Shown: positions 1 to 31,313 of the stretch, piece after piece | How the letters are laid out: every line of letters begins with the position of its first letter | Numbering within the stretch: the stretch's first letter is position 1 | From: Bacteroidales bacterium | Lineage (GTDB): Bacteria > Bacteroidota > Bacteroidia > Bacteroidales > Marinilabiliaceae | Direction of reading: 5' to 3' | Length of the DNA stretch: 33,792 bases | NCBI GenBank assembly: GCA_024401365.1 | Contig: JAKSLE010000027.1 | Span: 1 to 33,792 of the forward strand | Translations under genes and position numbers: made by a program | Notes under the pieces: generated by a model | The model's database searches: none | Seen by the model: the letters and a program-made list of their open reading frames with translations, nothing else | What the model was told of the DNA's origin: nothing

Positions 1-3000
1 TTTCGCGGCCCACCAGATAGACGCCTTCGTTCTCCTGACTGAAGCGGTTAATACCCGACTGACAGTTGAGCATACCCATGTATGTACCATCGTAACGATA
101 GAGCGTAAAGCTCTTAGCCTCTGAGGTCCTGATGACGATTTCACGTCCCTCAGCCCATATCTTCTGGTAGTCTTCGCCAAGCTCTTCCTCTGGCTCTTCA
201 GACTGCTCTTCCATCAAATCTGCGAGGTATGGATCCATAATCAGGATACTGCGAGTCTGAACGGCTCCGGCACCCTTCATATAGGTGCGGAATGGCAGAG
301 CGACACGACCTGTTTCAAAAGCAGAACCGGTGGCATTCATGCCATAGACGCCCTTATTCGAAGACCCTGCATCAATCATAGTCATGTAAGTACCGACATG
401 GTCTTGACCATTGACTGTTGTTGCACGAGTTTCATCGTCAGTAACCCCAATCGAAACAGCATTATTTTCGAAGGTAATGGTCTGTGCTGCACCAGTCTTT
501 GTATGAGAAGCAAGCTCATATTTCGTTCCCTCCAAAGAGAACTCATAGAAATCATTACCAGGGAAAGATATGATGTAAGGCACACCTGCTGTCAGATATG
601 GATAATCAGCGAAAGTGTGGCCAGATTTATACCACTCTAATTCAGGATTACGAGTATCATAATCTGCATTATATCTTTCAAGCGAAGTAAAGTAGGTATT
701 TGCAGGATAATTATATGTATCTCCATTTGCCTGTGCAAATAGCGCCTCACTTGAAGTAGTAGACCTCACAGGACGAGCAAAGAAAGCGGTAGAAGTGTCC
801 TCCATCTTCGTAAATCCATTGAGCCAATATTCATGGTGAAGCTCACTCACATCATATTCTACGTCTCCAATTGTTTCAATCGCATTATCGCCATAGAAGT
901 GAGAAATCTCTCCATTCTTAGTAGCAGTAACCTTAGTGGCTGTGAATGGCAGACAGATTCCCTCCCACGCTGTAGGATTTCCATAATCACTACTATTGAC
1001 ATTGCGGAAGTATTGTGGCAAACGCTCATACCAGACCTTAGTTCCTACAGAGAAAGCATATGGAGCATTAAAGCAACTCAGAAGGCCTAACTGCTCACGA
1101 CGATCATCTGATATAGCTGAAATCTTTTCGTTTTCAGTCAACAGATTTGAGTAATCAATCAGGTGCAAGTAGTCAATGCTTCCATCTGCAGTAGATGTAC
1201 CTGTGATATGATGACCCTTGAACTCTGCATAGCTTATCTCACTTTCATTTGTATAGTCACCATACAAACCTTTCTTGACAAGGCTATATGCATTATTCGT
1301 ACCGCTTGGCAGTGCTGGCCAAGGAGATGCAGAAGGAGCCACCTCATCGCTATTAAGCGTATACACGAGGAGATTGCGAGTCACATTCTTTGCAGGAGTA
1401 TAACTCTTCAAACCGAAGTATGGCATATCGATCTGTGGTGCGAAATAATAATTACCATTTGTTCCATACTGGTATCCTTCGCTACCAGGCAGGAAGCTGA
1501 CAGCGGTTACCTTATCATCCACAACAGCACCCTCTTCATTGAAGAATACATCGTACTTATTCTTCGAATGATTAAAAGCCTCGGCACGATATACGCGCTC
1601 CTCTCCGTTTGGCTTAATGCTACCGCCATATGTGCCGCCATAGAGATAATCACTGCGGTAGATCGCATTTGGCTTTGTAGAAGGATTAACGGCAGAGAGG
1701 TTCTGACCAAAGAATATGTAGTCGTTAATGACTTCCTTCTTTTCTGCATCAAGTAGATCTACTAGCACCTTATTAAATAATGGCTGATAAGTCTTTGTCG
1801 ATTCGTCAAAACGAAGCAAGTCCTTATCATGATTATATTTCTTATGGTCATAGTCAATATCTACATAATGGTTAGTCAACTGATAGTAATAATCATGATC
1901 CACATAATTTTCGTAGAAATCTTTTCGATAATGAGGCTTGCGACTGCTACGCAAATGCTTGCCTTCATCCGTACCCTCTGTACTGAATGTTGCATACTGA
2001 TAATCACCATTTCGGAAATAGTCTTCAACATATCCCTTTTCTGCATGATCATCACAATCAGCATTGCTACCATTCTTTTCAAGATAGCCCACATGATAAC
2101 GCTTGTGCAGATAATAGTTATTTCCATTATATGCACGGCTGCCATTCATATCCTCATCGGTCAGAGCGTCACCTTCATGACGCACAATTAAATTATAAGT
2201 TTTACCATTTGGCAATGCAAAGTTATTGCTGGTTGGCAGTGTGAGCGTATGGCCCATACCATGGAATGTGCCCTTGAATGAAGACAAGTCATACGATGGC
2301 ATTGTCATTGCAGAAAGATTGACGTTGTCCATCAGATAGAAATCCAAACCATCAGCATACCGAGGATGACCTTTAATAGAAGCCCAACCGGAACCATCTA
2401 CGCCTAATAGGTTTTGATCAGCAGTAGATCCACTGATCCAATTTGCATATTTCAGGAAGTTAATCATATCTTCAGCCGTCTCTATATAGATACGAGCACC
2501 CTTAATAGGCAATAGATTGATATCAATAGGGTCTTCAGAAGGAACAGCTCCCTTAAATAGATCTTGAGGAAGAGGTTCTCTCTGCTCACGCATATTCCAT
2601 ACCTGTGTCATATTATGATAGTTATGAACATCGATGGTTGTGATAGGTTCTTTTCCTCCATCAGTACTCAAAACATCGAAGGTTGACTCACCTGCCTGGA
2701 AGCGGAATGCCAAGCCCCATTTATTCAAGTAATAAGAAGCAGGTAATTCGAGTTTCTCATTACCATCACGATAGGTTACTTTATACTTATCTACATTATA
2801 ACCATTATCTGCGTTTACAAGGTTTGATCCACTTGGGCCATCTGCAGGAGGAAGCAACATCCACTGTTTGTTCTTGATAGGCATACCATCATCGCCTTCA
2901 ACCGTAATTGTGCTAGTATTAACGCGAATGATTTCACCCGGCAGTGCACAGTTCTCAATACGTGGTGCACCCGTTACACGTGGGCCTTGCAGATATACAA

Positions 3001-6000
3001 TTGTCAAGTTAATAGTATATTCATACTCCTCAGTTGCTCCAGGATTCTTTGCCTTAATCAGCATTTTAACCTGTGTATCCTCACCCATGAAGTTTTTATA
3101 ATAATCTTTTTTCTCCTGTTCTGTCCATCCTGTATATTGACTAGGATCAGTAAGTGATGGATTATTATTTGCACGATCATTCAAACGGATACCTAAGACA
3201 GGGAGACCAGAAGAAGTCTCTGAATGATAGTCTGCGTAATTATCAGAAGCTTTAATGGTCTTGAACTCCCATTCATTAGAAGCATCTTCAAGATTAGAAG
3301 TATTATTTACTTTAGGGCGACTAACTACAGTATTCCACGTATTTCCCCAAACCATGTTACGTGTATCTGCGTCTTCACTTGCATTTTCTCCAATATACAC
3401 GAACATCTCATACTTCTCTCTATCTATACCAGTATCAGGGTCCTTCTTAAAATTGCCCTCAAGCGAAGATGCATATTCTACATTCGTATCACTATGTACA
3501 CCCATCAAATCAGACTTATAATTGCTCGGTGCGGTCTCTGGCATACCATGATCAAGCCACTTGACACTCTCAAGATGTACCTTGCTCTGATCTTTTACAA
3601 TACCATCAAGAATAACCGCTTGTTCTGCCTGATTGAGCAAGAACTTCTGATTATAGTCCATAGTATAGCAAGTGAGTACCACATTATAGAAATACTTTGA
3701 TCCTTGCAGATACCAGTAGTGGCAAGCTGCAGGGTTCATGCTCTCAAGCAAAGCCTGATCTTCTGATTTTGTGATACTACCGCTGTTATATGTCGGGTGG
3801 AAGTTGGTCGGATAACAGTCATCCACAACATACTGAGGGGCCTGACCATTAAAACAGGTTCCAGGGAACATAAAGTTACCACTCGTCTCCAAGAAATAGT
3901 GATCATCTTTCTTGTCATCGGCGAGGTTTGACCCTGAGGCGGTAGTCTTAGCTTCGTGGTGGTTGGCTGCATAGATATAGCCACCGCCTTCACCTTGTGT
4001 AGCGGTAAGTAGCTTCACCTCAAACACGCCCACTACAGGGCCATAATAATAATCAAGACTTGAACCTCCATTTCCTGCAGTTCTTACACCATCCTGCTCA
4101 TTCTGAATACGCAGCGTATAGCCATTGTTCAAACCTACGAGATTACGGCCAGTACCCAAGTTGCGTTTCTTGAAATTATCTGCATTCTCAGCTTTTTGTT
4201 CATCTGTAGAAGCATTATACTGAGCATCATAGAAATTATCGATATAACCTTTCTTGACCTGTTCATATGATGCAGCTGTTCCTAATGTCAAATTTGGATC
4301 TGGAGCCCCCTGATATAGGCCAGCCTTATTATGATACGTATCATTGAATGCATCATTTGACACCATAGCGCCAAGGTAATGCACATTATTATAGAAACCT
4401 ACATAATTCCTCTTTTGTGTTTGATCAAATGCAGCTTCATTCTTATCTTCTCCCGTCATAATAACATCAGGCATAGAGATTTGGGCGAGGTTATCAGTTT
4501 TACTGATCGAAGAGTTCATTCGCCACTCATCAACCAATGTCACAGAATAAATGGTTGCATTCGGAACAACGGTTGCATAGTCACGCTGGCCTTCAAGGAA
4601 GAAACTACAGTCATTGATATCTACCAGGTCAAGACGTTGGAAGGTATTCAGAAGTACAGGATATTTCACCGTACCCTCGTGATAACCATAGCCAGTAATG
4701 TCTGCAGCACGGAAACCCTCACAATATACAAAGTGTCCATCACCAAAGATACCGCCTTCACCAGTTACTTTATAAACCTTATTGTCGGTTCCATTTATTT
4801 CAATTGCCGACAACTCATAATCCTGAAGAGTCTCATAAGCCGGGATTCCCCAGCTATCCTTCCTGGTAGGATCTTTAGCGAAATATCCCATTCTATTCTT
4901 TCCAGCCTTCAAATACACCTCTTCTGCATGTAATGAAGAAACACGGATATGATCCTTACCCTCCGACTGAGAATTATCATCAGCCAACATGATAGATGAA
5001 TTACCTCCATATCCGACAAGAGCCACAGGCTCAAGTGCTGTGTGCTTACGATAACTCAAGTCTCGGAACACTTTATGTCCAAAACGGTCAGTGGCTGTTG
5101 TCGCAAACTTATGAACTGTTGGCTCACCAGTTACATTACCAAGGTTACTTGGCACACTGTAACCTCCACCATATACACCTCCACCGATCTGAATATCTAC
5201 CTTCTTTGTACCATCTGTATTATTATCCCAACCAGGGAAGATCTTATCATGGTCGAGCTTATTATATGGAGTTGTCTTCGTCTGTTCATTTACACAATCA
5301 AAGTAATCGCCAATATTCTCAACATGGGCGAACGTAGTCTCAGTTTCAAGATAATCCTTCCATGTACTGTTTCCTGCATCGCTCCAGGTTGTCCATTTAC
5401 CATGAGTATCAACGACCGAATTAGTATGACCGATAATCTGATTAACGACATTCTTTGGCACATAGTCTCCCACACGATAAGATACCATGCTGACAACCGA
5501 AGGCACACCTACGTTTTGTTCGTTAATCTTCACAGTCTTCATACGTTTGCCCTCTTCTACAGTCCAGTGATCACCGCGCTTTAGCTGGAAAGTACCTTCC
5601 TGCTTGCAGATATAATATTCTGGGAAGCCTACAATAATGCTAGTCGAGCCATAAAGATCGCTCTGGTCTGTTCCGCCAACCACATCTCTATAGATCAAAC
5701 CATCCTGAATACGAATTTCCGAATTACCCACAGCTATACCTTGCTGACCACCACCATACACACTCACAGCAGTAGGATGCTCGCCACCACGTGTCGAAGC
5801 ATAAGTGGTAGAACTCCAAGGGATGGTATGAATATGAGTATCACCCAGCACGCGACTATCTTCACCATAGCCAGCGCCATACAGCTTATAAGCCGTAACT
5901 ACGTCATCGCCAAGTGTCAGCATCTTGTTAAGCTCTTGCTGGAATGCATCCCATGTCTTGAAAGTATATTTATCAGAGTGAGTACCACGTTGCGAACGCC

Positions 6001-9000
6001 CCAGCATGTCACTATAGAGGTCAATATGGACATCTCCTACAGTGATACCCGACTCATAGCAACCACCATAGACATTACAACCATCACCCAGATGACCATC
6101 TACCAGATTCGTTTCAAGCTTATTCTTACGGAAAAGCTCATTGGCATCTGTCGATGCGAGATTCATACGCAGATTAACAAACTGACACTGAATCTCCATT
6201 TCTGTCTTCACTGTATTTGCGTTTGACTTGTCGTCGGCTAACACAAGGCCATCAGTCGTGTCGCTCAGAGGCATCAAAAATCCTCCGATATGCTTAACAC
6301 CGAATGCATTTTCACTATGTTCATTCACATAGGTAAAGTTCGTATTCTTACATCCACCGATGATATTACCAAATACATTCAGCTTATATGGGAAAGAAAT
6401 CTTCACCTTCTTATCAATCATCATCGAACCAGCGTTACCACCCAAGCAGAAATCGCCGATATAAGCAGCTGTGTATTCCACATCCTTCATATTGTTGAAG
6501 CCCTGTGGCAAAGCATCCATCTCCACAGCTCGCATATAGATATCAAGTAAAGCAGGATAGATCTCATCCAAATTTTCTACGATCAGCTTCTCATTATCCT
6601 TATATTCACTGCCAGATTTGTAGAGTTGTGACAGATTAGCAGGGGTATTTGTTGCCGCAGTAAGATTCATGTTGTTAACCTTCTCTACGGCATTCAGATG
6701 GCGTTTGCTGGTCAGATTCTCACCATTCGAACCCATATATACAGCATTAAGGGTCACACAGTCTCCCATCTTAAAGCGTGTGAAAGTCTGGTGCGAATCG
6801 CCTGGTGTAATCTGTGTAATAGTTGCAGAGTTACCACCGCAATATACGGCATTGCTGATATACACCGTCGAAAGATCATGCGGACGACCTTCGATATCAA
6901 GATAAGCCTTGGTAACGTTTGGTCGCATCGTATTAATGCCCATAACCTTCTTCATATCCTGATCGAAGCCTACCGTCTTATATCCATTATGGTCAGCTAC
7001 GGCAGTCTCATCCAATGCATATTCAGAGCTCTCTGGAAGAATGTAATAATAGCCACCTTCTTCTTCTCCATAGAGGTTCGGATCATAGACTTCCTTCACC
7101 TGTGTTACTTTCTCTCCGGTCTGATCATCAATAGCATATTTATATACATAGTTACCATTACCAGCACCATATACATTACCAGAGATAGCACCGGCAATAA
7201 ACAGATGCGTTCCATTATAAATCCTACCAGCAATATCATTACCTCCATAGACATCATTAAAATGGCCGTTCAGAACTCGCAGTGTAGCTCCATAAACATC
7301 CTTATCGAAATCATCATTATTTTCTGACGATGCCGAAGCATGTTCAGGATATCGATCAGCAAAGTCAACGGTGTTATCACCGTCTTTTGCTTCAACACTG
7401 GCAATACGACAACCACCGAAAATCTGGTCTATATACAACTGTTCACTATTAACAGTAAGATTCAGGCCTCTTGTCTCACTATATTGAGCGAACTTATCGC
7501 CTGCGCCGCCGCCCACAGAAACCAAAGAAGGATTACCATTATAATAATTCATATCGCCCATATTGCCACCCGAATATACATGTCCGAGGTGACCACTGGC
7601 AAGGTTCCAACTAGGGAGAATGCTCATCTTGGCATGATTATTACCGCCAAAAAGACGAAGCACCTGATAGTTGAACTTATACTGGCTTCCCGACTTCTTA
7701 TAATCCAGATCCGAAAGACCGATGTAATGACTGTTAACAAAATCTTTATCCGCCGCAGCCACAGAAGCTATGACATCATATTTTGCTTGAGGATCATTAA
7801 CATCATTACTACCATGAAGGCCATCTGATGGTATGATAGGCTCAGCCACATGTATAAAATTCGACTCTGTAATTGTCGCCATATTGCCGCCGCCATAGGC
7901 CTGATACATAGTACCACCAGTAATATCCAGAACAGCTTTTCCGACATTTGGCTGATCTCCTTTTTCTGTGGTCCATAACTCTCCATTACCACCAGCATAG
8001 ACAGTACCTATGAGTGGATAGCTGTTATAACCTGCCTTAGCCTTATCGTTCTCCAGATCCTCGGAATCATGCTTTTCAAGTTCTGCATTATCACCAATAC
8101 GCACATATGTATTCGGAGTAACACGCCAATCACTTCCAGCAGCTATATTCAGTTTATTCAACAGAGGATCTGTATCAACGTTACGCCAGTCTTTACTTGC
8201 AATATAGCTATCACCATTCGCACCGTCAATCGTACCAGCCACATCCGTACCGCCAAATACCATCTTGGCTACCGTCGGCACATGTCGTGCAGGTAAAGTG
8301 CCATCAGAGGCGTATGGCTCATGAATCCACACATATGTGCCACCAGCAATGTTAGCCTGACGCGCACCACCATAAACGTTGGTTACATACCCACCAGTCA
8401 CCTCTACATTAGTCGATGCTTTAGTTCCTAGGGTTGTGTTCGCTACAAGGTCACCATGCATTCCACCGCCATAAATATTACCGAATACGGTAGATGGTTT
8501 ATTATTTGCATCGAGGTAGCCATCGAACTTCACATAAGTGTTACCCTCGGTAGTACCTAACTGCGATCCACCAAAGACATTAAATACGTTTTGGGAAGCG
8601 AAAATATCATTCGAATTAATCTGGTAAGGCTTATTATTGACAACCACCGAAGTATTGCCCTTTGAATGAGTTGCTTCACCATAGCCACAACCCACCACGC
8701 TCAGGCAGTTGTTATTCTCAGCATCACTGGCCAAGGCGAAAAGACTCTCAGCAAACTTTGTAAAGTCCTCTGCATCATCCACCCAGCACTGATAGTCGAG
8801 CAGCACATCACCCGTCATCAAGCCCGTATTGTAACAGCCACCATACACATTACCGCCATAAGCGTGCGTGAATTCTTCATTAATGTGTGGTATGAGCTTA
8901 TTTTTCAGCGTCAGTCGAAGATGGTTCTGACCATTCTGGCCATTCAGGAATCCTCCATCTACTTCATAAGATTTGCTACCATCAGTATATTTTGCAAAAG

Positions 9001-18797: not shown

Positions 18798-18826
18798 GCG
18801 AGATTCCGGATTAATTAATCTCTCGC
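18798..18826. promoter_or_regulatory. Imperfect inverted repeat in the C-B intergenic gap
   Basis: GCGAGATT on the plus strand is mirrored by AATCTCTCGC across ATTAATTA-rich sequence, so a hairpin with a 2-nt bulge could form between the stop of gene C and the start of gene B. The centre includes the perfect 12-bp palindrome GATTAATTAATC (18809-18820). There is no downstream T-run, so a terminator is not well supported. It could be an operator, a processing site or chance. Confidence 0.3.
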
Positions 18827-18852
18827 TTCAAATAAAAATATGCCAGAAGAGG
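18809..18852. repeat. 44-bp direct repeat, left copy (fossil of the 67-aa gene 3' end)
   Basis: This stretch matches 31461-31504 at 43 of 44 positions. On the minus strand the right-hand copy encodes PLLAYSYLKREIN plus stop, the end of the 67-residue gene. Here the same frame would read PLLAYFYLKREIN plus stop but has no gene attached. It lies 9 bp beyond the stop of gene C and 46 bp upstream of the gene B start codon. It is best read as the scar of a tandem duplication or insertion of the D-C module, or else as a shared regulatory element. Confidence 0.9.
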
Positions 18853-18861
18853 ATTCACCGA

Positions 18862-21800
18862 CTACTTAACGAGCAGCTTTTCGCCACCCACCAGGTAGAT
18901 TCCTTCTACCTCCTGACTGAAGCGGTTCAAACCAGCTGAGCAATGTAGTGTGCCGCGATAGGTACCATCATGACGATAGAGGTTGAAGTTACGAGCCTCC
19001 GAAGTCTCAATGACGATATCTCGACCCTCGGACCAGATCCTCAGATAGTCCTCACCGAGCTCGTCTTCAGGCGATTCTGTCTCCTCCTCCATCAGGTCTG
19101 CCAGATATGGATCCATGATCAGAATGCTGCGGGTCTGAGGGTCAACAGAGCCCTTCATATAAGTGCGGAATGGCAAAGCATCGTTGCTTGTTTCGAACTT
19201 TGAACCAGTACCATTCATACCCAAAACATTTGTAGTGTGCATATAAGTACCATAATGTTTTGATGCCGTTGGTTTCATTTCTTCGTCACTCACAAGAATA
19301 GTTGTAGTTCCGCCATCGAAAGTGATCTTTTGAGGTGCACCACTCTTAGTATGAGAAGCTCGATCATACTCAGTTCCTTCTAGAGAGAACTCATAGAAGT
19401 CATTACCTGGGAAAGAAATGATATATGGCACACCGGCTGTCAGATATACATAATCTTTATATGTATGCGATTCATTATACCATTGTACATCATCACGAGT
19501 ATTCGAGTCAGGAATATATTGTGATAGACCTGTAAAGTAAGTATTTTTAAATACATAACCAGGATCACTTGCGATCTTCTGAGAACTTTCGGTAAACAAG
19601 CCTGAACCTTCTTTTGCTGGACGCATGAATGTAGCAGTATGGTTTGTATTATCGTATGCAGTCATACCATTGAGCCAATATTCATGGTGAAGTTCACTTA
19701 CGTCATAAACAACTCCACCAATAGTTTCTGTAGCATTGTTTCCATAGAAGTGGGTAATCTCACCATTCACACTTGCCGTCACCTTCGTAGCCGTGAATGG
19801 CAGACAGATACCTTCCCATGCGGTAGGATTTGCATAGCTCTCACCTGTTCCACTGACATTACGGAAGTACTTAGGCATGCGCTCATACCATGCACGGTTC
19901 TTCACATTGAATGTAATCGGAGCATTGAAACACTGCTTATCCACCAGATGGAAGTAGTCGGTAGCAAAATTGCCGCTACCATCCTTCACGATGTTATGGT
20001 ACTGCACATCTGACTCCGTGGTAGTACTGAGGTCCTTGAACTTGAACACTGCACCTCCATTATCATTATTATATACAAGGAGATTCTGTGATACCTTGTT
20101 GGTCGTCTCGTTGCTGTATGGACTGACTGTGCCGTTGTGATCACTATTGAATGAGGAGAGCGACTCAGGGCGGTCGTCAGTCTTGCCGTAGAAGTTTCCA
20201 GCTGCAGTTGTTTCTGGATTGTCTGCTGTGAAGTCAATAGCTGTCAACGTTGGCTGCATAGCCCATGCCACCTTATTATAATGGAACTTATCTGGGGTGG
20301 AACTATGGTAGTATCCTGTAGTGCGATACACACGGTTTGCTTCTGTCCAGCTATTAACGGAGAACTCTTCATCAATATGCTCAGGATATTTCTTCTCTGC
20401 CGTTGGATTCAACGTCTGACCGAAGAAGAGACAGTCGTGCCGAATCAGTTTGTATTCATCAGCATGCTCTGCATTATGGCTTGTCTGCATGTTGCCGTAG
20501 TTAGGAGCAGCAATACGGAGGTAGCGGCTGTTGATACCAGAAGTGAGAGCATAACGCCAATCACCACCCATGCCGTCATTGTTGGCAAAGAGGGTGTGGA
20601 CGTAGTTGTTAGGATCATTCTCCGTTGAATAGTAATGGCTGAGGGCGTAAGCCTTCTTGCCATACTTCAATACATCGGCATCGTCAGCCGTAGAGAAGCT
20701 GTTGGTGATAGTTCCTGTAGAAGCAATAGTTCCGTTAGGTACTCCGAGGTTATAGACATAACCTGTAAGGTTGTTGCCGAAGAGCGAACCTGCGTTGCTT
20801 GGCAGTGATAAAGAGTAACCATTTCCATGCAATGTGCCAGCAAACGTACCAGTTATTGCAACAGGTAATGTGAGGTCATTCTGCAGGAAGAAGTGCATAC
20901 CCTCGCCAGTATTGCCATCGTTGACGTAGCTTACAAACGCAGCGATATCATCATCGTCAGCAAGGTATATCATTGCACCCGGTTTGAGAGCCTTAGCGTA
21001 GATATTGCCATCTGTTTTAGAGAGCGTAACATCATAGTTTGTATCAACGATATCCGCCATTTTATGATAGTTATGTACCACAAGCATACGTTTGTTGAGA
21101 GGCTCGGTGTCTGTTGTAGTAGGGGCTACGACAAAATCTTCACCACCAGCACGGAAGACGTAATAAACATTCCAATGGTTTTGGCTGTAGAGTGCAGGTA
21201 TGCTACCTTGTGAGTAACCTTCAGCGTTGGTCGTGGTGAAAGACGCAGGAATTATCTTGCCCTTGCTTTCATCCCATGAATACGTATCTTCACTAAGGTC
21301 GTCCTTCAGCGGCACGAGTTTCCAATCAAAGCCAGTCACAGGGAGCTGATCCGTGGTCTTGATTTGAATATCATTACTATTGAAGCCGATGCGTTCACCA
21401 GGGAGAGCACAGTTCATGATATTCACATTACCCGTAAACGATGGACCCTGGATATACACTATCTCAAGGGTTACGTTGTAGGTCTTGGTTTCGTAGGTAA
21501 GATCGCCACCTGCTGTAGTGCCGTCCTGCTTCCTTGCCTGAATAATCAACTGCACATTCTCAGGTACGCTGAGGTAATTGTTATAGTATTCCTCCTCATG
21601 GTTCAGCGGACAGTTGTCAACGTTGTCAATGAGATGAACGTTGAAGCGTGGGGTGGTATTGGTGTTATTATAAGTTGTCCATGTCGGCGAAGTTATCTGC
21701 TCTGTATCTGTTGTTGAACGAGGCATCTCGTTGGTCCATAGTGGTTGGTCGTTGGCATTATCGCCCACCTGTAATGTGAACTTATATTTGACATCGCTGC

Positions 21801-24800
21801 CACTTAATGGAGTAAGATATTCATCACGTCCTCCTCGGATATCACCAGTATAGCCTTCAGGATATGTAGCCGCCTGCCACTTCACGCTCTGCAGACTTAC
21901 CTCCCAATCGTTCTCTATACCAGCGAAGATGACGTTAGGGTCAGCGGTGCTAAGGTCAAACTCTTTCTTTGTCTTGAAAGAGAACGCCGTGAGGGTGGCA
22001 TGATAATAATAGGTGTCGCCGATAACATACCAGTAGTGCTGCTCAGGGAGAGTACCTCCACATTCATCGAATCCCTTTGGCAGACAGTCATCCACGATAT
22101 ACTGCTTTGCATCTTCACCAGGACGAATAACACCCTCAAAGACGAAGTTACCTGATTCGTTCATGAAGGTTGCTGTCTCTGGATGATCTTTATCGTAAGT
22201 ATCCGCATGGACATTGTCAGCATACACATAACCACCACCTTCGCCTGGCTGCACATTAAGAAGCTTTACCTCTGCCACACCAACGATAGGACCGTAATAT
22301 GATTTGTGCTCATCACCTTCATAGTACTGATTCTCCACATGCAGGCTGAAACCACTGTTAATGCCTATCATGTTGCGGGCAGTAGCGTAGTTGCGCTGCT
22401 TGAAGGTATTGGTTGCTGCCTCAAGCTTATCGGAATTATAATAATTTGTTATGTATTCTTGCTTCTTTTCGCGATAAGACACAGTACCAACTTTACCTGC
22501 GTAATCATGGAACTTATCCGTACGGAAGTCATCATTGGTAACGATAGCACCAATGTAGTGAATGGTGTTATAGAAGCCTATGTAGTTGCGTGACTGCTTT
22601 GTAGTGAAATCTGTAGCATAAGTGCCTGTTGCATCAATCGTAGAATTCATGCGCAACTCGCCAATACGCGCAAGAGAATACTTACGCTTATTAATCTCAT
22701 CGGTAGCAAAGTCCTCATCACCATAGAGCTTGAAGCAGCAGTCATTGACCGTAAGGAGGTCAAGACGCTGGAGGGAGTTGAGCATAAGCGGATTACTTGG
22801 TGTATGCTGAGCATAGCCATAGCCATTGAGTTCTGCTGCACGGAAGCCTTCGCAGAATACCAAACGACCATCGCCATAGATACCACCAGTACCACTATAA
22901 TGACCATTGACCACAGGATTCTCAGTAGAAATCTTGATATGATCTTTAGTTGTACCTTGGTCTGAGACGATGATACTTGAGTTACCACCATAGCCAACGC
23001 TAGAGTTGCCCTTGCTATCCACACCGTGGTTATATTCCGTGGTGCTTGCCAACGTTGTATAAGATCCAGCAATGGCTGCGGTAGAGTTACTCAATGAGAA
23101 TCCTCCGCCATAAACACCGCCACGCACACGAATCTCCACGCTGTTCCAACCACCAGTAGGGAAGAAAGAGTCGTCTTTACCCTCGTCATGGAAAGCGAAG
23201 TATTCATTATCCTGACGTATATCAGTGTGGATGCTGCTAAGAGGAGTAATAGTCTCTGAACCATGCAACTTCACTCCAGTTATCTGGTCATATACATTAC
23301 AAGGCACATAAGTACCTTCGAAGTACTTGATGCTCTTCTTGATGACAGACTCCGCTCCATTTTTGCCCTTAGTCATGTATCCCTCATTCCACTTGTCTGC
23401 ACGGTCAATGAAGTATTCGCCTGACTGTTTGCAGACATAGAACTTAGGATAACCCACGGTAATCTGTGCCGAACCATACATAGGAGCAGCGAAGCTACCA
23501 CCAACAACGTCCTTATATACCAGTCCATCGTGAACATGGATAACGGAGTTGCCCACAAGCATACCATTACGTCCGCCACCGAAAATATTGTTTACTGATG
23601 GATGGTGAGCAGCCACGTTTGGAATGTCCTTCATATAGATGTAAGCATCGCCGAAACTGCGTGACTCTGGACCGTAGCCTGCGCCATAGACATTAGCCAC
23701 AGGGAGGTTAAGCCTGTTCGATTCATCAAGTTCTGTATTTGTATAGGCATCAATAGTTGTGCCATATCGTGGATCGGAGTAAGCCAGCATATCCGACTCA
23801 ATGTATATCTGCACATCGCCAACCATATCGCCCGACTGATAGCAACCGCCATATACGTTACATCCATCGTGCCATGCCTTGCCATCAACCTTCCAGGTCA
23901 CGCCATCGTCGGTCTTGTCGGGAGCAAGGTAGTCCTGTGCTTTGTAAGTCTCTCGGTATTCCTTATACTCATCACCAAGAACCATACGACGCGAATACCA
24001 GTCACCTCGAATCTTCATGCGAAGCTTGGTCTTCGTAGGTTGATCAACGCCACTGTCATCCTTCAGAGTAGCGCCACTTGCCAATGGCATACGGAAACCG
24101 CCACGATGCCACTTACCCTTATACTGGAAAGATGCGTCCTTACTACCGCCGATGATACGGCCGAAGAAGTTCAGCGACTGTGGGAACACGATATCCACCG
24201 GTTGGTCAGTCATCATACTTCCAGCATTTCCTCCCATACAGAAGGTACCAATCCAAGTATTCTGGAAAGTATGACCAGAGAACTCGGTGAAGCCCAATGG
24301 CATTGCCTTCATATCCACTGCACTCATATATACTGACAGCAGGTTAGGATAGATGGTCTTGATGAGTTCTTTCGTGTCTGCAGGGAGGCTATACATCGCA
24401 AGCAACTCATTCCATTCGGGATCCGTCATGTCTGCAGAGAAGTCAAGTCCGTTGACCTTCTCAAAGTTCGTAAGGTATGTATTATCCTTATCGTTGGCAT
24501 CATACCTCATCGATTCGCCATTACTGCCCATGAACACCTCATTGACGATGACATTATTGCCGATATTGAACTTCACATGAGCATCACCAGTTTCCTGACC
24601 TGTAGAACGAATGGTAGAAGCATTGCCACCGCAATATATCGAACCAGAGATATAAACCTTGTTCGCTGCATCCTGACCCTGAATGTTAAGATATGCCTTC
24701 GCGACATGTGGACGAGCGTTGGTCAGAGACACGAGTTGCTTGAGTTGTGAGTCGCCTTCTGCGCCAGGAATCCAATAGACGAACTTATTTACATCATTGT

Positions 24801-27800
24801 TCCACACCTCTGCTATGCCGCTCGTTACATGCTCGCCTGTCTTATCGTATGCATAGAGGTAGTTACCGTTACCAGCGCCATATACATTACCCGTGATAGA
24901 GCCCGAGAGGTTTACATTAGTGCCGTTATATACATAGCCGCTGATATCATTGCCACCATAGACATTACCGATGTGACCCTTGATGACATTGACCGTAGCA
25001 CCGTATTCGTCCTCCTCAAAAGTAACTGAAGATTCGCCATCCATAGCCTTCACATCACTCATACGACACCCGCCATAGAGCGACTCAATGTAGATGTCCT
25101 CAGAGTTTACTTCAATGCTAAGACCCTTCGGTTCGCCATTGTCTGTATCTGCTACTGGGTTATAGTAAGTCATGTCACCCATGTTACCACCACTATACAC
25201 ATTACCTACCCTACCCTGCTTCAGGTTCCACTTAGGCTGAATAGTCATCGTTGCCACGTTGTTACCACCGAAGAGATTATCCACATGATGTGCACTCATC
25301 TTCAGTTCTGTGCCATTCCAAGTATATCCGTCACGAACCGTCTTGAAGAACTTATCATCAAGGATACCCTTCTGGTATTCTGTGAATTGCACATCGGCAT
25401 AATACTCGCCAGAAGCATTTATAAAGATATAAGCCTCATCAGTTATCGTTGCCTTATTGCCACCACCGAAGGCTTCAAGCGTTGTACCGCCGTCTATCTC
25501 AAGGAGCGAGGTACCTACGTTTGGTGCTACACCAAGCTCTTCGCTCCACTGCTCACCATTACCACCACCATAGACATTTCCTACAAGAGGGAATCCCGTC
25601 ACGCCAGGGTTTGTACCCGATACCTGTATGTAGCTGTTGAAGTTCTTTCCCTCAAGGGCTGGCCAAGCAGTCTTGGTCCATGTGGCTGGCATAGTTCCGC
25701 TGATGGTTCCGCTGATATCATTGCCACCATACATATTGCATATAATAAGGTGGCTGAACTTATCCTTGAGTCCTGTACTTTCACGTGTCGAACCATCGTA
25801 TGCCCAAACGTGCGCTGCACCGCCGATGTTTGCCTGACGGCTGCCACCATATACATTCACAAGGAAGCCCTGCACCAGCTCCACATAGGTGTTGCCATCT
25901 ATGTCGCCCTTGAATCCACCACCATAGAGCGAACCAAGCATCGTACCCTGCTTACCACCATCGTAATATACGTTGGTGCTACCAGCCACAGTACCCATGT
26001 TGCCACCTCCGAACACATTATATATAAATGGCCAGTCACCGTTCTCCGAACTGGTATCGCCTCCTGATGTCTGGACGCACAGATATACATCGCCCATAGA
26101 GTGGGTATCCGTACCATAACCCGCACCGAACACGTTCAGCGCATTGTTACGGTTAAGGTCTGCCACCTCGTCATAAATAGCCTTGTTCGTCTTGCCGAAG
26201 AAACGCTCATCAGTACAGAGTGGAGACAATGAACAGTCGTAATCAACCCATGAGTCGCCTTCTACATAACCAGTCATATAGCAACCGCCATAGACGATAC
26301 CGCCATGAACATTCAACTCTGTTCCTGCAGTAGGATTAGCCTCATGAACAGCAGGATGCAGACGGTTCTTAAGTTCAAGGCGAACAAGAGCTTTTTCTTT
26401 CTTTCCAAAGTAACCGCCATCGCAGGTGAAGTCAGCAGTCTCAAGAGATGAAGGGTTGTGAATCTGATGAATACGGGTATTGCTTGTGTTGTCTTCTGCA
26501 TTCAGTCCACTGCTCATGGCCAACATACCACCATCGAAGTTATAACGCAGAATACCAGTGATCTGGTCAGGTTGATCTGCATCTTCATATAGTTCCTTTA
26601 GGTACTGGCCGTTATTTGTACCATTATCTTTAACCCAACCACCAGGTATCTCTGTCTGGAAGATGTAGTTACCCTGACTGTCTTGTTTATATCCATGTTC
26701 GTCAGTCTCATAGATACGATACACAATGTGCGCGTTATACGAACCACCTACCACGGCATGACCTACCGTCACACCCTTAGGCAGCTTATAGTAGAATGAG
26801 CCATTCTTTGTCATTGCCTTCATCGAACCACGATAGCCGCCACCGACGAAGTTCGACATCCAGATGTCTTGAGCCTCATCGCTGATGTTCAGCTTCACAT
26901 CGTCCGACCACGTAAGGATATTGTTGATAAAGTCGGAAAATGATTTCAGTCCTGCCTTTCGTCCGATGTCATTGCCATCCGCATCATATACAAGAAAGCC
27001 TGGCAGGTAGGTATGCGAACGAGGATTGAAATAATGGTGATAGTACTCCAGTTCGTCTGGTTTTGTACTCTGTGTCACCATCTCCTGACCGTTACTACCC
27101 ATGAAGAGTCCGTTAGGAGCATCGTGGGAGTCGTTGCGGTTGCCCAACTGCACATGACTGCCAATGTTTATCTCTATCGTACCGCCTCCAAGGAAGTTAT
27201 TGCCCGGATGCCATGAAGTTGCATCGTTATCGCTATATACCTCAGCGTTATCATCCTTCTTGCCATCCCATATACCTACGTTACAAGAGTTGCCGCCACC
27301 AAAGGTGCGACCCCAGATGCGCACTTTATCCACATTCTGTCCGTCGTTGAAGTCCGAACCCTCATTGCCCTGCAAGTTCATCACTACGTGAGCGGTACGA
27401 GGACGATATTTATACACAGGAGCGGTGACTGCAGGATTCTCCTGTCCCGGCTTCTGCATCTGACGATAGTTCTCTGATGGGTGCTGACTGAGGCTGAACT
27501 GAATATGTTCAGGGTTGGTATAGCCGGTATGGTTACCGTTGCCTGCGCCATAGACATCACCCAGCACAAGACCGCCGTAGATGTTCATGCGGACGCCGTG
27601 GTCAGCATCATCCTTAGGAGAATAAATATTGTAGGTCAGCGAAGTACCTGCGATTGAGTGAGTATCGACTACTTCCGTTCCCACCGTACCGCTGATATCA
27701 TTACCTCCATAGATGGCACTCTTCACAAGAAGCTGTCCGTTGTGAGCTTTGATGTCATCACTTGTACCTTGCTGTCCGTAGGTAAGATTGGCCTTGCCAT

Positions 27801-29121
27801 AGACATTACCAATCAAGCCGCCACCATAGATACGGTTGAACAGTCCGGACTTAAGCGTTACGTTGGTTTCTCCAACGGAAGCGTAGTAGCCACCGCCATA
27901 GACCTTACGCACCACCACGTCACCGCCGATGGTTACATTAGTACTGCCCACCACCTTGCCGTTATAGCCACCACCAACGACATCCATACATGAACGTCCA
28001 GGTGCGCCATGACTCCATGTGGCTCTCTCTGCAGCATCATAGATAACATTCGGGTCTGGATTAACGCCATCCCAAATTGAAGAGAACGAACTTTTGAACT
28101 GCGACAAATATCTGAACGAATGTGAACCCTCAATGTCCATCGTCACATTGGTGTCGCCATTAACCTGAGCATGATAACCATAGCCACCACCGAACACACA
28201 GAACTGCGCATTGGCAATTGAGTTATAGACGATGTCCCATTGCTTCATACCGTCAAGATACGTCTCATTCAGCATACCCTCACTGACCATACCATAGTTG
28301 ATGTGAGTGAATGTATTACCAGCAACATTTGCTGCCGTCATACCACCACCGTAGATATTATGGTCGGTCAGGAAGAGCTGTGTCTCACGACTGGCATCAA
28401 ACTGATTCTGGGTAAATTCCGATATCTTTCCATCAACTACCTCATACGTCTTCAGTATCTTGTATTCGTACTCTGTATGGTTGCCGTCCTCACCATCAAA
28501 GACTACAAAGGTGTTGCCGGTGGTTAATTCTTTGCCTGTAATCTTCTTGATGTCGGCAGAGGCAAGGACTGTCTGACGATTATCTGGAAGGATGGTTTTA
28601 CCATCGGAGTCCATTGTCTGAGTCACCTTTCCCAATCCGCCGCCAAAGGCATCATGCGCCATCTTACCTTTCTTGAAGTGCACAAGTGTATTACCACTGA
28701 TATCAGCCATCTCGCCACCTCCGAAGATACGTTCCCAAGTGTTAGCACCATCAAGGACAACATCTGTCTGACCTGTGACAAGTCCTGCTACGACGTCATC
28801 GCCACCTTCTTTTCCCTGACCGCCGCCAAAAACCTTGCCGAAAATCTCCGCACCAGTGCTGAGCTTGACCTTTGTTGTGTAGGAATGTTCCATGTCTTTG
28901 TGGAACAGGCCTCCCTCCTCACTATTAAGCTTACTATCTGTGACAAGCTGATTGTCCAGTGCATCATCTTTCGCAACGACCTGAGACAACTCTCCTCCAC
29001 CATAGACGTTACCATAAATCTTCACCTTGACTTTCGACTCTACTCCTTGAGCATAGCCGACGTTTACTGCTCCTATCAGGAGTAGCATCAAGAGAATTAT
29101 ATGTTGAGTTTTCTTTGTCAT
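18862..29121 (-). CDS. Giant secreted YGGG-repeat protein with T9SS-like C-terminal domain (gene C)
   Basis: 3419 residues. A signal peptide (1-24, VGYA|Q) is followed almost at once by KIYGNVYGGGELSQVV. About 38 [YFV]G[GA][GNSC] turns were counted by eye between residues 35 and 2045, commonly as GxVYGGGxxGxVxGxTxV, which suggests a beta-solenoid. The region from about 2050 to 3340 is repeat-poor. It has a GLUG-like FAGTLHGNGYSLSLP near 2754, WEGICLPFTATKVTA near 3102 and AGVPYIISFPGNDFYEF near 3230. An acidic linker (3345-3358) precedes a roughly 60-residue terminal domain ending GIYLVGGEKLLVK, typical in pattern of T9SS type A sorting domains. It starts 20 bp after the stop of gene D, so one operon is likely, and it is a full-length paralogue of gene A. 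T9SS export to the cell surface is an inference from the terminal domain. The role is unknown; adhesin or structural surface fibre are possibilities. Confidence 0.95.
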   Translation of the reverse strand: MTKKTQHIILLMLLLIGAVNVGYAQGVESKVKVKIYGNVYGGGELSQVVAKDDALDNQLVTDSKLNSEEGGLFHKDMEHSYTTKVKLSTGAEIFGKVFGGGQGKEGGDDVVAGLVTGQTDVVLDGANTWERIFGGGEMADISGNTLVHFKKGKMAHDAFGGGLGKVTQTMDSDGKTILPDNRQTVLASADIKKITGKELTTGNTFVVFDGEDGNHTEYEYKILKTYEVVDGKISEFTQNQFDASRETQLFLTDHNIYGGGMTAANVAGNTFTHINYGMVSEGMLNETYLDGMKQWDIVYNSIANAQFCVFGGGYGYHAQVNGDTNVTMDIEGSHSFRYLSQFKSSFSSIWDGVNPDPNVIYDAAERATWSHGAPGRSCMDVVGGGYNGKVVGSTNVTIGGDVVVRKVYGGGYYASVGETNVTLKSGLFNRIYGGGLIGNVYGKANLTYGQQGTSDDIKAHNGQLLVKSAIYGGNDISGTVGTEVVDTHSIAGTSLTYNIYSPKDDADHGVRMNIYGGLVLGDVYGAGNGNHTGYTNPEHIQFSLSQHPSENYRQMQKPGQENPAVTAPVYKYRPRTAHVVMNLQGNEGSDFNDGQNVDKVRIWGRTFGGGNSCNVGIWDGKKDDNAEVYSDNDATSWHPGNNFLGGGTIEINIGSHVQLGNRNDSHDAPNGLFMGSNGQEMVTQSTKPDELEYYHHYFNPRSHTYLPGFLVYDADGNDIGRKAGLKSFSDFINNILTWSDDVKLNISDEAQDIWMSNFVGGGYRGSMKAMTKNGSFYYKLPKGVTVGHAVVGGSYNAHIVYRIYETDEHGYKQDSQGNYIFQTEIPGGWVKDNGTNNGQYLKELYEDADQPDQITGILRYNFDGGMLAMSSGLNAEDNTSNTRIHQIHNPSSLETADFTCDGGYFGKKEKALVRLELKNRLHPAVHEANPTAGTELNVHGGIVYGGCYMTGYVEGDSWVDYDCSLSPLCTDERFFGKTNKAIYDEVADLNRNNALNVFGAGYGTDTHSMGDVYLCVQTSGGDTSSENGDWPFIYNVFGGGNMGTVAGSTNVYYDGGKQGTMLGSLYGGGFKGDIDGNTYVELVQGFLVNVYGGSRQANIGGAAHVWAYDGSTRESTGLKDKFSHLIICNMYGGNDISGTISGTMPATWTKTAWPALEGKNFNSYIQVSGTNPGVTGFPLVGNVYGGGNGEQWSEELGVAPNVGTSLLEIDGGTTLEAFGGGNKATITDEAYIFINASGEYYADVQFTEYQKGILDDKFFKTVRDGYTWNGTELKMSAHHVDNLFGGNNVATMTIQPKWNLKQGRVGNVYSGGNMGDMTYYNPVADTDNGEPKGLSIEVNSEDIYIESLYGGCRMSDVKAMDGESSVTFEEDEYGATVNVIKGHIGNVYGGNDISGYVYNGTNVNLSGSITGNVYGAGNGNYLYAYDKTGEHVTSGIAEVWNNDVNKFVYWIPGAEGDSQLKQLVSLTNARPHVAKAYLNIQGQDAANKVYISGSIYCGGNASTIRSTGQETGDAHVKFNIGNNVIVNEVFMGSNGESMRYDANDKDNTYLTNFEKVNGLDFSADMTDPEWNELLAMYSLPADTKELIKTIYPNLLSVYMSAVDMKAMPLGFTEFSGHTFQNTWIGTFCMGGNAGSMMTDQPVDIVFPQSLNFFGRIIGGSKDASFQYKGKWHRGGFRMPLASGATLKDDSGVDQPTKTKLRMKIRGDWYSRRMVLGDEYKEYRETYKAQDYLAPDKTDDGVTWKVDGKAWHDGCNVYGGCYQSGDMVGDVQIYIESDMLAYSDPRYGTTIDAYTNTELDESNRLNLPVANVYGAGYGPESRSFGDAYIYMKDIPNVAAHHPSVNNIFGGGRNGMLVGNSVIHVHDGLVYKDVVGGSFAAPMYGSAQITVGYPKFYVCKQSGEYFIDRADKWNEGYMTKGKNGAESVIKKSIKYFEGTYVPCNVYDQITGVKLHGSETITPLSSIHTDIRQDNEYFAFHDEGKDDSFFPTGGWNSVEIRVRGGVYGGGFSLSNSTAAIAGSYTTLASTTEYNHGVDSKGNSSVGYGGNSSIIVSDQGTTKDHIKISTENPVVNGHYSGTGGIYGDGRLVFCEGFRAAELNGYGYAQHTPSNPLMLNSLQRLDLLTVNDCCFKLYGDEDFATDEINKRKYSLARIGELRMNSTIDATGTYATDFTTKQSRNYIGFYNTIHYIGAIVTNDDFRTDKFHDYAGKVGTVSYREKKQEYITNYYNSDKLEAATNTFKQRNYATARNMIGINSGFSLHVENQYYEGDEHKSYYGPIVGVAEVKLLNVQPGEGGGYVYADNVHADTYDKDHPETATFMNESGNFVFEGVIRPGEDAKQYIVDDCLPKGFDECGGTLPEQHYWYVIGDTYYYHATLTAFSFKTKKEFDLSTADPNVIFAGIENDWEVSLQSVKWQAATYPEGYTGDIRGGRDEYLTPLSGSDVKYKFTLQVGDNANDQPLWTNEMPRSTTDTEQITSPTWTTYNNTNTTPRFNVHLIDNVDNCPLNHEEEYYNNYLSVPENVQLIIQARKQDGTTAGGDLTYETKTYNVTLEIVYIQGPSFTGNVNIMNCALPGERIGFNSNDIQIKTTDQLPVTGFDWKLVPLKDDLSEDTYSWDESKGKIIPASFTTTNAEGYSQGSIPALYSQNHWNVYYVFRAGGEDFVVAPTTTDTEPLNKRMLVVHNYHKMADIVDTNYDVTLSKTDGNIYAKALKPGAMIYLADDDDIAAFVSYVNDGNTGEGMHFFLQNDLTLPVAITGTFAGTLHGNGYSLSLPSNAGSLFGNNLTGYVYNLGVPNGTIASTGTITNSFSTADDADVLKYGKKAYALSHYYSTENDPNNYVHTLFANNDGMGGDWRYALTSGINSRYLRIAAPNYGNMQTSHNAEHADEYKLIRHDCLFFGQTLNPTAEKKYPEHIDEEFSVNSWTEANRVYRTTGYYHSSTPDKFHYNKVAWAMQPTLTAIDFTADNPETTAAGNFYGKTDDRPESLSSFNSDHNGTVSPYSNETTNKVSQNLLVYNNDNGGAVFKFKDLSTTTESDVQYHNIVKDGSGNFATDYFHLVDKQCFNAPITFNVKNRAWYERMPKYFRNVSGTGESYANPTAWEGICLPFTATKVTASVNGEITHFYGNNATETIGGVVYDVSELHHEYWLNGMTAYDNTNHTATFMRPAKEGSGLFTESSQKIASDPGYVFKNTYFTGLSQYIPDSNTRDDVQWYNESHTYKDYVYLTAGVPYIISFPGNDFYEFSLEGTEYDRASHTKSGAPQKITFDGGTTTILVSDEEMKPTASKHYGTYMHTTNVLGMNGTGSKFETSNDALPFRTYMKGSVDPQTRSILIMDPYLADLMEEETESPEDELGEDYLRIWSEGRDIVIETSEARNFNLYRHDGTYRGTLHCSAGLNRFSQEVEGIYLVGGEKLLVK
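23645..27710 (-). repeat. Internal super-module duplication within gene C
   Basis: Marker motifs recur in the same order. YGGNDISG occurs near residues 470, 1129 and 1386, VYGAGNGN follows the first and third, and FMGSNG occurs near 672 and 1530. YGGCY occurs near 944 and 1755, followed each time by an [FY]GAGYG turn with a GD(V/A)Y strand (near 1010 and 1820). Two colinear copies of a several-hundred-residue block therefore seem to underlie the array, with a partial extra copy between them. Gene A shows the same order of markers (MGSxG, YGGCY, NDIAG, MGSNG, YGGCY), so this internal duplication predates the A/C split. Confidence 0.65.
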
Positions 29122-29141: not shown

Positions 29142-31313
29142 TCACTCGTCACAGATATTTACCGTCGTTGTGCCAGTCACCTTAGCCTTATCAGGGTGAC
29201 CATCTTCACCTTTGCCAGCACCATATACATTGCCGAGGATGATGCCGCCGAGGATAGTCACATTTGTGTTACCCTCTACAGCACCCATAGCTCCACCGCC
29301 GTAGATATTACCTTTGTAAGTCCAGTCAAGATTAGGAGTATCGAAATCATCAGGCCTCCTTGGGTCAATGACAACATTTGTCGTGCCATAGACTTTAGCT
29401 ACATCAGCAAATTCTGTTGCTTTACAAGTGTATGTTTTTTGTGTTGCACCGTTCCAAACACTTTGAGAACCTTCAGACTGAGAATCTAAACCTTTACCAC
29501 CGCCATAGATGCCGCCGCTGATGTTGCCACCATAGATATTCACATGCGTATCACCATATACAGAAGCCACAGTACTAAAGCCAGTCCTTTGAGCGTCTGT
29601 TGTTGAAGCATTGAAGTAATTGGATGCTCCCATACCGCCGCCATAAACACCGCCTGTGATAGTACCACCGTAGATGTTCACTCTCGCCTCTCCCCAGAAG
29701 GAACCTGCACCTGCGATAGCACGTTCAGCTGGCATCTCAGGAGAGAAACCATAACCACCACCAAATACGCCACCATTGACTATGCCTCCATGGATATTTA
29801 TCTCCGTAACAGTCTTGCTCAGGTCTATTGTTTCGGGTGTTCCATGAAGGGTGGTTGTGAATGTTGGCATTGACTTAGTACCGGTCTCATCGTATGGCTG
29901 ATATCTGATACCCATAAAAGGATAGTTCTTATAATCATTTCCGCTATCCAAATAGGGAACAAACTGATCAGTAGTATGGTATGCACCATCTGGGCTCTTC
30001 AACCCTGTGATACCACCTGCAGTAGCAAATATACCAGATTCAATCTTTCCACCATGCATATTCAGCGTGCTCTTTCCATAAAAGGCGGCATTGGAAGTTC
30101 CTTTTGTATCCTTATTATCCGTATAACGTCCGAAACATGTAGCAAAATAACGATAGATAGTCACATCTTCATTCTTAGCAGGGTTGATATTAACCTCCGT
30201 ACGACCAAAGAAAGATGAGTTAGAAATACCCACCGTAGCTGTTGCCGTATGAGAGTTTCCCTGCATGGCAGCAACAAGGGTACCAATCGTACCACGCTTG
30301 ATGTTAAATTGCACATCACTATACACCATACCTTGCGTCATTCCGGCGCAAAGGTAGGCAATATCATACACATCATTACGGGTATTCCAAGCGCCTGTGG
30401 ATGTATTCGGATCAATATCTACATTCACAACGCAAAGGAATGGGGAGCTTGGACGTCCCATCACATATCGTTTCTTAACAGCATCAGCATCTACACCGGT
30501 AAGACGGTTTGTCAATATACGACCAAATTTACCGGATTTAATGGTTAGTGTTACCGGTTTCGTTTGAGTAGGTAGACCACCGGTGGCAGAAGATGTACTG
30601 AAACTGTACGTACTAGCAAACAAGAATACCTGAAAATCCGGGGCCTTTCGAGTAGAACCATCCACACGTAGTGCACCATTCTCTGCAGTAAGACTGGCGC
30701 TTACATCATTCATCACGCATCCTACATCAAACATGCAGTCATGCAGAAACATTGACAAAAAGCCATTAGTGGCTCCAAAACGGACATATTTGAACTTAGT
30801 GTCAGCTCCGATGCGAGTGGTTCCACTTGTTAGAGTACTACTATAATTCGATGAATTGAGATACACTCTTCCCCAAGAACTTATCTTGCTTGAAGCAGTA
30901 TTCTCTGCCGTCCACGGCCAAACACCTGTGATGGTGACAGGAATACCATTGGTACCATTTCCTTTGGCAATGGTTTCGTCTATAAAGAGGTTGCCTGATC
31001 CCTGTGCATTACGAACCACAATAATATTGCTATCCCATGCGGCATCGCGGTCGGAATCGGTGGTGCCGGTGTAATTAGGGAGCAGTTTATAAGCTTGAGC
31101 CCATGACCTTACTGCATTGGCCTCAGACGAACCATCTTTCGAGTCGTTACCCTCGCCAAGTTTCAGGTACACCACATTATATGTCTCTTTCACACCATCG
31201 CCATCGTAATCGTATTCTTCGGTATGCGTCTGCGCCCACACGCACCCCCCTCCCATCACCATCATGATGAGCATCATCAATATTCGGGACATGCATGTAT
31301 TCTGTTTGATCAT
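29142..31313 (-). CDS. Secreted protein with short YGGG array, no sorting domain (gene D)
   Basis: 723 residues. A signal peptide ends at VWA|Q (residue 27). The mature start (THTEEYDYDGDGVKETYN) leads into a beta-rich domain with repeated SGKFGRI/RGTIGTL/GGKIESG turns. Residues about 505-723 hold five clear YGGG-type turns, and the protein stops within this array (AKVTGTTTVNICDE). Residues 49-723 are homologous to the last roughly 670 residues of gene B. There is no T9SS-like C-terminal domain, so it would reach only the periplasm unless it travels or assembles with its neighbour. Gene C begins 20 bp downstream and resumes the same repeat, so co-transcription and joint function are likely. 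The ATG at 31313 is followed by a second one (residue 8) that gives a more compact signal peptide. Function is not known. Confidence 0.93.
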   Translation of the reverse strand: MIKQNTCMSRILMMLIMMVMGGGCVWAQTHTEEYDYDGDGVKETYNVVYLKLGEGNDSKDGSSEANAVRSWAQAYKLLPNYTGTTDSDRDAAWDSNIIVVRNAQGSGNLFIDETIAKGNGTNGIPVTITGVWPWTAENTASSKISSWGRVYLNSSNYSSTLTSGTTRIGADTKFKYVRFGATNGFLSMFLHDCMFDVGCVMNDVSASLTAENGALRVDGSTRKAPDFQVFLFASTYSFSTSSATGGLPTQTKPVTLTIKSGKFGRILTNRLTGVDADAVKKRYVMGRPSSPFLCVVNVDIDPNTSTGAWNTRNDVYDIAYLCAGMTQGMVYSDVQFNIKRGTIGTLVAAMQGNSHTATATVGISNSSFFGRTEVNINPAKNEDVTIYRYFATCFGRYTDNKDTKGTSNAAFYGKSTLNMHGGKIESGIFATAGGITGLKSPDGAYHTTDQFVPYLDSGNDYKNYPFMGIRYQPYDETGTKSMPTFTTTLHGTPETIDLSKTVTEINIHGGIVNGGVFGGGYGFSPEMPAERAIAGAGSFWGEARVNIYGGTITGGVYGGGMGASNYFNASTTDAQRTGFSTVASVYGDTHVNIYGGNISGGIYGGGKGLDSQSEGSQSVWNGATQKTYTCKATEFADVAKVYGTTNVVIDPRRPDDFDTPNLDWTYKGNIYGGGAMGAVEGNTNVTILGGIILGNVYGAGKGEDGHPDKAKVTGTTTVNICDE

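Follow-up and report, generated by a model that had tools for sequence, protein, structure and literature searches.

Two pairs of giant repeat-protein genes in a Bacteroidales contig as candidate split beta-solenoid surface adhesins

Why should neighbouring genes each encode a giant repeat protein, the first stopping and the second beginning on the same kind of repeat? This question is raised by the window analysed here, a stretch of 33,792 bases that is the entire contig JAKSLE010000027.1 of a Bacteroidales bacterium assembly (GCA_024401365.1). Four genes on its minus strand, D, C, B and A in transcription order, run head-to-tail from base 31313 to base 2, with intergenic gaps of 20 and 99 bases and one 4-base overlap of the A start with the B stop. 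An earlier reading of the DNA alone (hereafter the sequence-only reading) had described four head-to-tail genes encoding more than 10,000 residues, and the total is indeed 10,396, A being cut by the contig end. What is new is that D and C, and likewise B and A, look like the halves of one protein. Each pair is proposed to form a segmented beta-solenoid adhesin, exported by the type IX secretion system (T9SS) and with its halves docking edge to edge, a proposal to which we give an even chance of being right. The gene order, the ends at rung boundaries and the existence of homologues in a single open reading frame (ORF) are firm; the paralogy of the genes, motifs of a T9SS C-terminal domain (CTD), a T9SS translocon in the same genome and the fimbrial neighbours of relatives are likewise read from sequence.

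At least 15 related loci were identified among 84,980 species genomes using two peptide patterns from the C/A alignment. D and B, which carry no CTD, end 3 and 4 residues, respectively, past their last rung motif, which is of the VxGxTxVxI type. A survey covered 30 solenoid proteins that retain their 3' end and have a minimum of 300 residues, two YGGG motifs and one rung motif, with six that are cut there left out. Half of these (15/30, two of them cut at the 5' end) lack a CTD and stop within 1-11 residues of a rung motif that precedes the end, a pattern shared by an interrupted protein of locus L085. Twelve of the 30, with CTD-like tails, end at least 2093 residues past the last rung motif, and the remaining two end 163 and 289 residues past one. 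In the nine of the 15 rung-ended proteins that pass a stricter filter, positions so near a rung make up 1.3-9.3% of the sequence.

The next gene opens with a YGGG rung, within its first ~60 residues, in 10 of the 15 cases, rising to 12 once inserted non-solenoid genes are skipped; the inserts in the two extra cases are a 518-aa ORF in L012 and RhuM and KilA-N genes in L094. Among the D/B-type genes with an intact 3' end and downstream sequence (D and B of the window and those of L006, L007, L012, L083 and L084), a C/A-type gene lies downstream in all seven, with immediate adjacency in five. Extra solenoid genes that both start and end on a rung are present in L083 (1331 aa) and L012 (722 aa), and further D-type genes, cut or interrupted, in L085, L086 and L087. 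The pair is also found as one gene. Single ORFs in two genomes, G095:C18 (6335 aa) and G099:C50 (6296 aa), span B-like and then A-like regions, in order: they match B from residues 874 and 875 to 2806 and 2788, respectively, then match A from 918 and 1029 to 3446, and both end in a CTD. By the Rosetta-stone argument, a fusion of this kind is a classic sign that the two proteins work as a unit.

The tails of C and A fit a long T9SS type A-like CTD, which those of D and B do not. A Y/FxxxG-20-GxY[IL] pattern occurs in nine of 11 C/A-type tails (C, A and seven of nine others) and in none of the seven D/B-type tails with an intact end; L007 and L010 also hold two proteins of no relation that match it. 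The exceptions are L012, which lacks the Gly, and L013, in which the spacing differs; A is cut before the basic end. The CTDs described for Prevotella intermedia carry YxxxG as motif B, GxY as motif D and a basic motif E, the long ones have seven strands, and the box-to-box spacings of 10-17 are measured differently from the 20 residues here (PMC11969387). The last 60 residues of C are modelled as seven strands (block pLDDT 58-76) in an AF2 model of residues 2260-3419, and the best PDB match of a C/A tail profile, a weak one, is the C-terminal end of Hbp35 (5y1a, E 0.034). TIGR04183 matches none of eight C/A-type tails above its cut-off and four of the eight below it. The translocon protein SprA is encoded in the same genome (TIGR04189, 2517.7 bits against a cut-off of 200).

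The AF2 model of D is a beta-solenoid or beta-helix fold of stacked strands whose last strand occupies residues 716-720 of 723. Foldseek returned 21 matches to it, none at E <=0.001, most of which we take to be beta-helices; the best structural neighbours are UpaB (6bea), the self-associating protein 4kh3, EtpA (8vbb) and a region of an antifreeze protein (3p4g), with CsgA (8c50) at rank 2 and an rmsd of 10.2. The solenoid of D and the seven-stranded CTD of C are predicted folds, and the beta-solenoid that the sequence-only reading suggested for the repeat gains support from structure prediction for D.

From these elements, each module (D-C and B-A) would encode one giant surface beta-solenoid adhesin as two separately exported polypeptides. 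The D/B part, exported by Sec, would begin with its N-terminal domains and end as an uncapped solenoid edge, whilst the C/A part would present its own uncapped edge first, a long non-repeat body next and the sorting domain last. Either in the periplasm or at the surface, the two edges would dock into one continuous solenoid, and the CTD of C/A would take the docked D/B part out with it and keep it attached to the cell. The steps that we infer are docking, the route by which D/B is exported, and adhesion. If the halves do dock, a surface rod larger than any one polypeptide can be built, and a protein devoid of a sorting signal would be sent through the T9SS as a passenger. A wider form of this proposal, tentative and on balance rather doubtful, is a surface filament in which two or three giant polypeptides, separately exported and uncapped, lock into a composite solenoid several thousand residues long; the T9SS signal would sit in the last segment alone, the others would cross the outer membrane as passengers, and segments could be added, swapped, fused or interrupted at rung boundaries. 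The coordinates of the features are collected in Table 1.

Table 1. Features of the two gene pairs in the window
Feature	Position	Strand	Description
Gene D	29142..31313	-	723 aa; signal-peptide-like start, then beta-helix domain and 6 YGGG-type rungs
Terminal rung of D	29145..29192	-	..KAKVTGTTTVNI followed by 3 residues; proposed open C-terminal edge
Gene C	18862..29121	-	3419 aa; signal-peptide-like start, YGGG rungs beginning at residue 39, non-repeat body, CTD
First rung of C	28957..29031	-	..VKIYGNVYGGGELSQVV, directly behind signal peptide; proposed open N-terminal edge
Putative T9SS-type C-terminal sorting domain of C	18865..19050	-	YRHDG, 20 residues, GIYL, KLLVK; seven short strands predicted
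Gene B	10336..18762	-	2808 aa; signal-peptide-like start, long N-terminal region of GLUG-like repeats, D-type core last
D-homologous C-terminal core of B	10339..12375	-	Sequence comparison
Gene A	2..10339	-	At least 3446 aa; homologue of C; 3' end cut by contig end
Putative T9SS-type sorting domain of A	2..172	-	Truncated by contig end; 74% identity with the C domain across 100 residues
47-base copy in C-B gap	18806..18852	-	95.7% to 3' end of 67-aa ORF upstream of D
Matching 47 bases upstream of D	31458..31504	-	Sequence match

The relationship between the two pairs is less simple than first described. Residues 125-723 of D match 2211-2807 of B at 31.8% over 641 columns (BLAST, E 5e-63), which upholds their homology and reduces its extent from the 670 residues first given to about 600. 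C matches A at 34.6% over 3097 columns (E 0), with a further 30.9% over 566 columns; the whole-length homology that had been claimed thus holds apart from the first ~250 residues of C, which have little counterpart in A. The further claim of a duplicated D-C / B-A unit calls for correction. D-type genes (window, G095, G096, G098, G099 and G101) and B-type genes (window, G096, G098 and G100) form separate clades, each with support of 99/99, in a midpoint-rooted tree that carries long-branch warnings for the G101 row and two single-ORF rows, and G096 and G098 carry both types. With members of both clades in other genomes, the modules are old paralogues that are now adjacent. A stretch of 47 bases in the C-B gap is nearly identical to one upstream of D (Table 1), which suggests that the modules were probably brought together by recent recombination.

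The tails of A and C have a history of their own. C is 66-96% identical to its L006 homologue over residues 1351-3150, 47% in 3151-3300 and 28% in its last 119 residues; in those last 119 residues it is 73% identical to A, against 25-57% elsewhere. The stretches that look homogenised lie at 18865-19300 (C) and 2-450 (A), and gene conversion between the two tails is, from these comparisons, the likely cause. That the similar tails merely reflect a CTD type general to the cargo of this genome was rejected, a 108-residue query finding only A and C at E up to 1.

The family is rare and mostly found in horse-gut metagenome-assembled genomes. Horse-related names attach to seven of the nine closest loci (L006-L014), and the more distant loci include yak, goat and RUG (rumen) records. 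A D query, which by itself could miss B-type genes, found only its own genome among 61. A D/B profile matched, at E 1e-40, the L006 genome and one other of 399 genomes sampled from its family, and eight of 10 genomes of related loci at E 0.001; in six of these 10 (G095, G096, G098, G099, G100 and G101) the D/B core was matched with E below 1e-40. Within the window's own family of 71 genomes, the C/A tail-region profile was matched at full length in the window's genome alone; 13 others gave a short tail match, mostly to the last ~60 positions, which are the sorting domain.

This distribution bears on where the contig belongs. D is 84% identical to a gene of a Candidatus Prevotella equi genome, which lies outside those 71 genomes, pointing to either recent transfer or a mis-binned contig. 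The chance that the locus derives from a Prevotella-like horse-gut organism, and not from the genome under which it is filed, we place somewhat short of even. Besides the D identity, it would account for the up to 96% identity of C to L006 over 150 residues, for the absence of a full-length tail-region match from all 70 other genomes of the family, and for the window's amidase gene having its best matches outside the window in G104 and G099 instead of in genus mates. The tetranucleotide distance of 0.176 between window and genome, however, lies within the 0.086-0.27 of 15 genome pieces, although L006 gives 0.174 as well, and horizontal transfer accounts for the same facts as mis-binning.

Wherever the locus originated, several points weigh against docked halves. 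Rung ends are non-independent observations, many of the proteins being homologous, and inside the rung-bearing span of three D-type proteins 27-28% of positions lie equally near a rung. Behind three of the 15 rung-ended proteins, the next gene is neither rung-started nor an obvious insert, and for the L084 partner, which is cut, the C/A-type label comes solely from the N-terminal repeats (24% over 727). In the single ORFs, the B-like part is separated from the A-like part by ~1,200-1,400 residues of further repeats, and matches of these ORFs to the N-terminal repeats of B and of A are ambiguous. The AF2 models are weak, with mean pLDDT values of 56.9 for D and 44.8 for the last 1160 residues of C, a quality that does not allow a fold search with the latter, of which the final 60 residues alone were used, and TIGR04183 gives no match to the tails of C or A at E up to 10.

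The same arrangement could represent two independent exported proteins that act together without edge-to-edge docking, such as a D-type ligand-binding protein that is periplasmic or released and a C-type cell-bound adhesin, with rung ends being simply where solenoids happen to end. We consider this unlikely. It is consistent with the signal-peptide-like stretch, ending in AQ, with which each of D, C, B and A opens (judged by eye), with the lack of a CTD in D/B, and with the three rung-ended proteins that have no rung-start partner, two of which are followed by another rung-ended gene. It is harder to reconcile with B-like and A-like regions joined in single ORFs in two genomes, with extra genes that both start and end on a rung, and with the fact that just two of 17 CTD-less proteins with a genuine 3' end stop away from a rung.

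The proposal of a segmented adhesin also draws on the neighbours of its relatives. Six of 10 D/B-type or fused genes, from five genomes, have a fimbrillin as the next same-strand gene upstream (L006, L007, L083, L086, L087 and L117; window B, which is preceded by C, and L012, which is cut, were left out). These upstream genes belong to one minor fimbrillin family, by alignment A4 for the first five and by hhalign (99.5%) for L117; the distance is about 0.9 kb in L006 and 33-54 bases in the others. PF13149 is matched at cut-off by the L006 copy and below it by those of L007 and L087, whilst the L083, L086 and L117 copies are unmatched. L087 presents a cassette of DUF3575, DUF5119 (below cut-off), three Mfa_like_1 genes (two above cut-off) and D; a DUF3575-DUF5119 operon begins just behind the G095 single ORF; and in L015 the more distant giant is preceded by a DUF3575 gene and by a FimA-like gene whose match falls narrowly short of the cut-off. 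The fimbrial genes of L016 were judged from their likeness to those of L015. An Mfa1/FimA-type fimbrial operon before the unit in several relatives suggests a role in attachment, the unit acting as a tip or accessory adhesin or alongside pili.

In its strongest form, the unit would be a fimbrial tip or accessory component on type V-like pili, comparable to Mfa5, a Porphyromonas gingivalis fimbrial tip protein with a T9SS CTD (PMC7835359), and loci without fimbrillin would have lost or relocated their pilus genes. The shared minor fimbrillin family, extending to the single-ORF gene of L117, the L087 cassette, in which the third Mfa_like_1 and DUF5119 fall below cut-off, and the L015 giant all favour this idea, which is nevertheless improbable as it stands. 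Four of the 10 genes lack an upstream fimbrillin: window D, L084 (where a 154-aa upstream fragment was judged by eye), L085 (where the neighbour is HTH_18) and the G095 single ORF. No fimbrillin lies beside D in the window, and the window's genome, 87% complete, gives no match to PF13149, PF12099 or alignment A5; nor was a fimbrillin recognised in 14 genus mates, the searches of both having been made without a positive control. In D, C and A, moreover, no vWA or similar Pfam domain is found. With no fimbrillin match in its own genome, the fimbrial role is, for this organism, a lead taken from relatives. Translational read-through from D into C or from B into A is not needed, because C and A each open with a signal-peptide-like stretch of their own.

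Autotransporter and other solenoid adhesins use other export routes. UpaB, 4kh3, EtpA and the 3p4g region share with the locus the beta-solenoid body of a large surface protein, but neither D nor the D/B profile matches a PDB chain in sequence. Curli (CsgA) offers a precedent in which solenoid subunits are secreted one by one and stack edge on edge; these are small and alike, whereas the locus has two or three distinct large segments and the T9SS. The window solenoid is several times larger than Mfa5, and the window copy has no adjoining fimbrial genes. Mfa5 is likewise a surface protein with a T9SS CTD in a fimbrial operon, comparable to the relatives of this locus that follow Mfa_like_1 genes, but it is one chain with vWA and IgG-like domains in place of a split beta-solenoid with no vWA match (PMC7835359). 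The pectin-lyase-fold T9SS cargo of Prevotella intermedia comprises beta-helix proteins with T9SS CTDs, the long ones of seven strands; these have 1-3 pectin lyase domains, and split or tandem giants are not mentioned in the portion of the source available (PMC11969387). Together with its relatives, the locus ties a giant protein family without a name, from horse and ruminant gut bacteria, to type V-like fimbriae.

The repeat itself is well above expectation. Strict [YF]G[GA]G motifs number 5 in D, 19 in C, 6 in B and 12 in A, compared with shuffled means of 0.28-0.86 and maxima of 2-4 (200 shuffles per protein). The repeat on which the sequence-only reading was built is therefore real, yet its spacing is irregular, from 5 to over 400 residues and more in B, where, one looser match aside, it is confined to the last ~330 residues. 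Most of B consists of a different, GLUG-like repeat (13 motif matches), for which PF07581 scores 11.9 bits, under its cut-off of 20.5. No Pfam family is above cut-off in the four proteins, nor any NCBIfam family in D, C or B. At E up to 1, D, C and A match no Pfam family, vWA included, and B only sub-threshold Glug; none of the four matches a haemagglutinin activity domain, a translocator barrel or chlamydial Pmp repeats (PF02415) at that level. No PDB chain was matched by sequence with E below 0.03, and in open-licence PMC full texts no paper was found on the [YF]G[GA]G repeat or on the arrangement.

Rfam and tRNA scans of the window returned nothing, promoter and terminator scans found sites no commoner than in shuffles, and only short repeats were seen in the flank. 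Upstream of D, at 31463-31992, lie a DUF3791 gene and a 67-aa ORF for which Pfam gives no credible match, followed at 32253-33291 by an HTH_18 gene that overlaps an Amidase_2 gene; the L085 D-type gene also has an HTH_18 gene just upstream.

Several observations in the related loci stand on their own. The D-type gene of L085 (8369-10324, G099:C43) has an in-frame stop, and G099 carries the single-ORF B-A version elsewhere. In L094 (16689-17989, G103:C134), RhuM-family and KilA-N genes separate a rung-ended gene from a solenoid gene that encodes 5552 aa or more, and the 3' end of the RhuM gene encodes GGSTEVNIE, resembling the rung end of its neighbour (23 bases, 91%); the intervening genes look as if they had been inserted or recombined at rung boundaries. 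A protein of ~520 aa with no Pfam match, alike by eye in the two cases, is encoded just before a solenoid gene in L012 (2373-3929) and in L089 (64-1632). An 856-aa protein with a Chlam_PMP repeat match (L117:6606-9173) belongs to the cluster upstream of the single-ORF giant, and the genome of L016 also contains one uninterrupted open frame, 7727 residues long, that carries YGGG repeats (L118, G104:C53).

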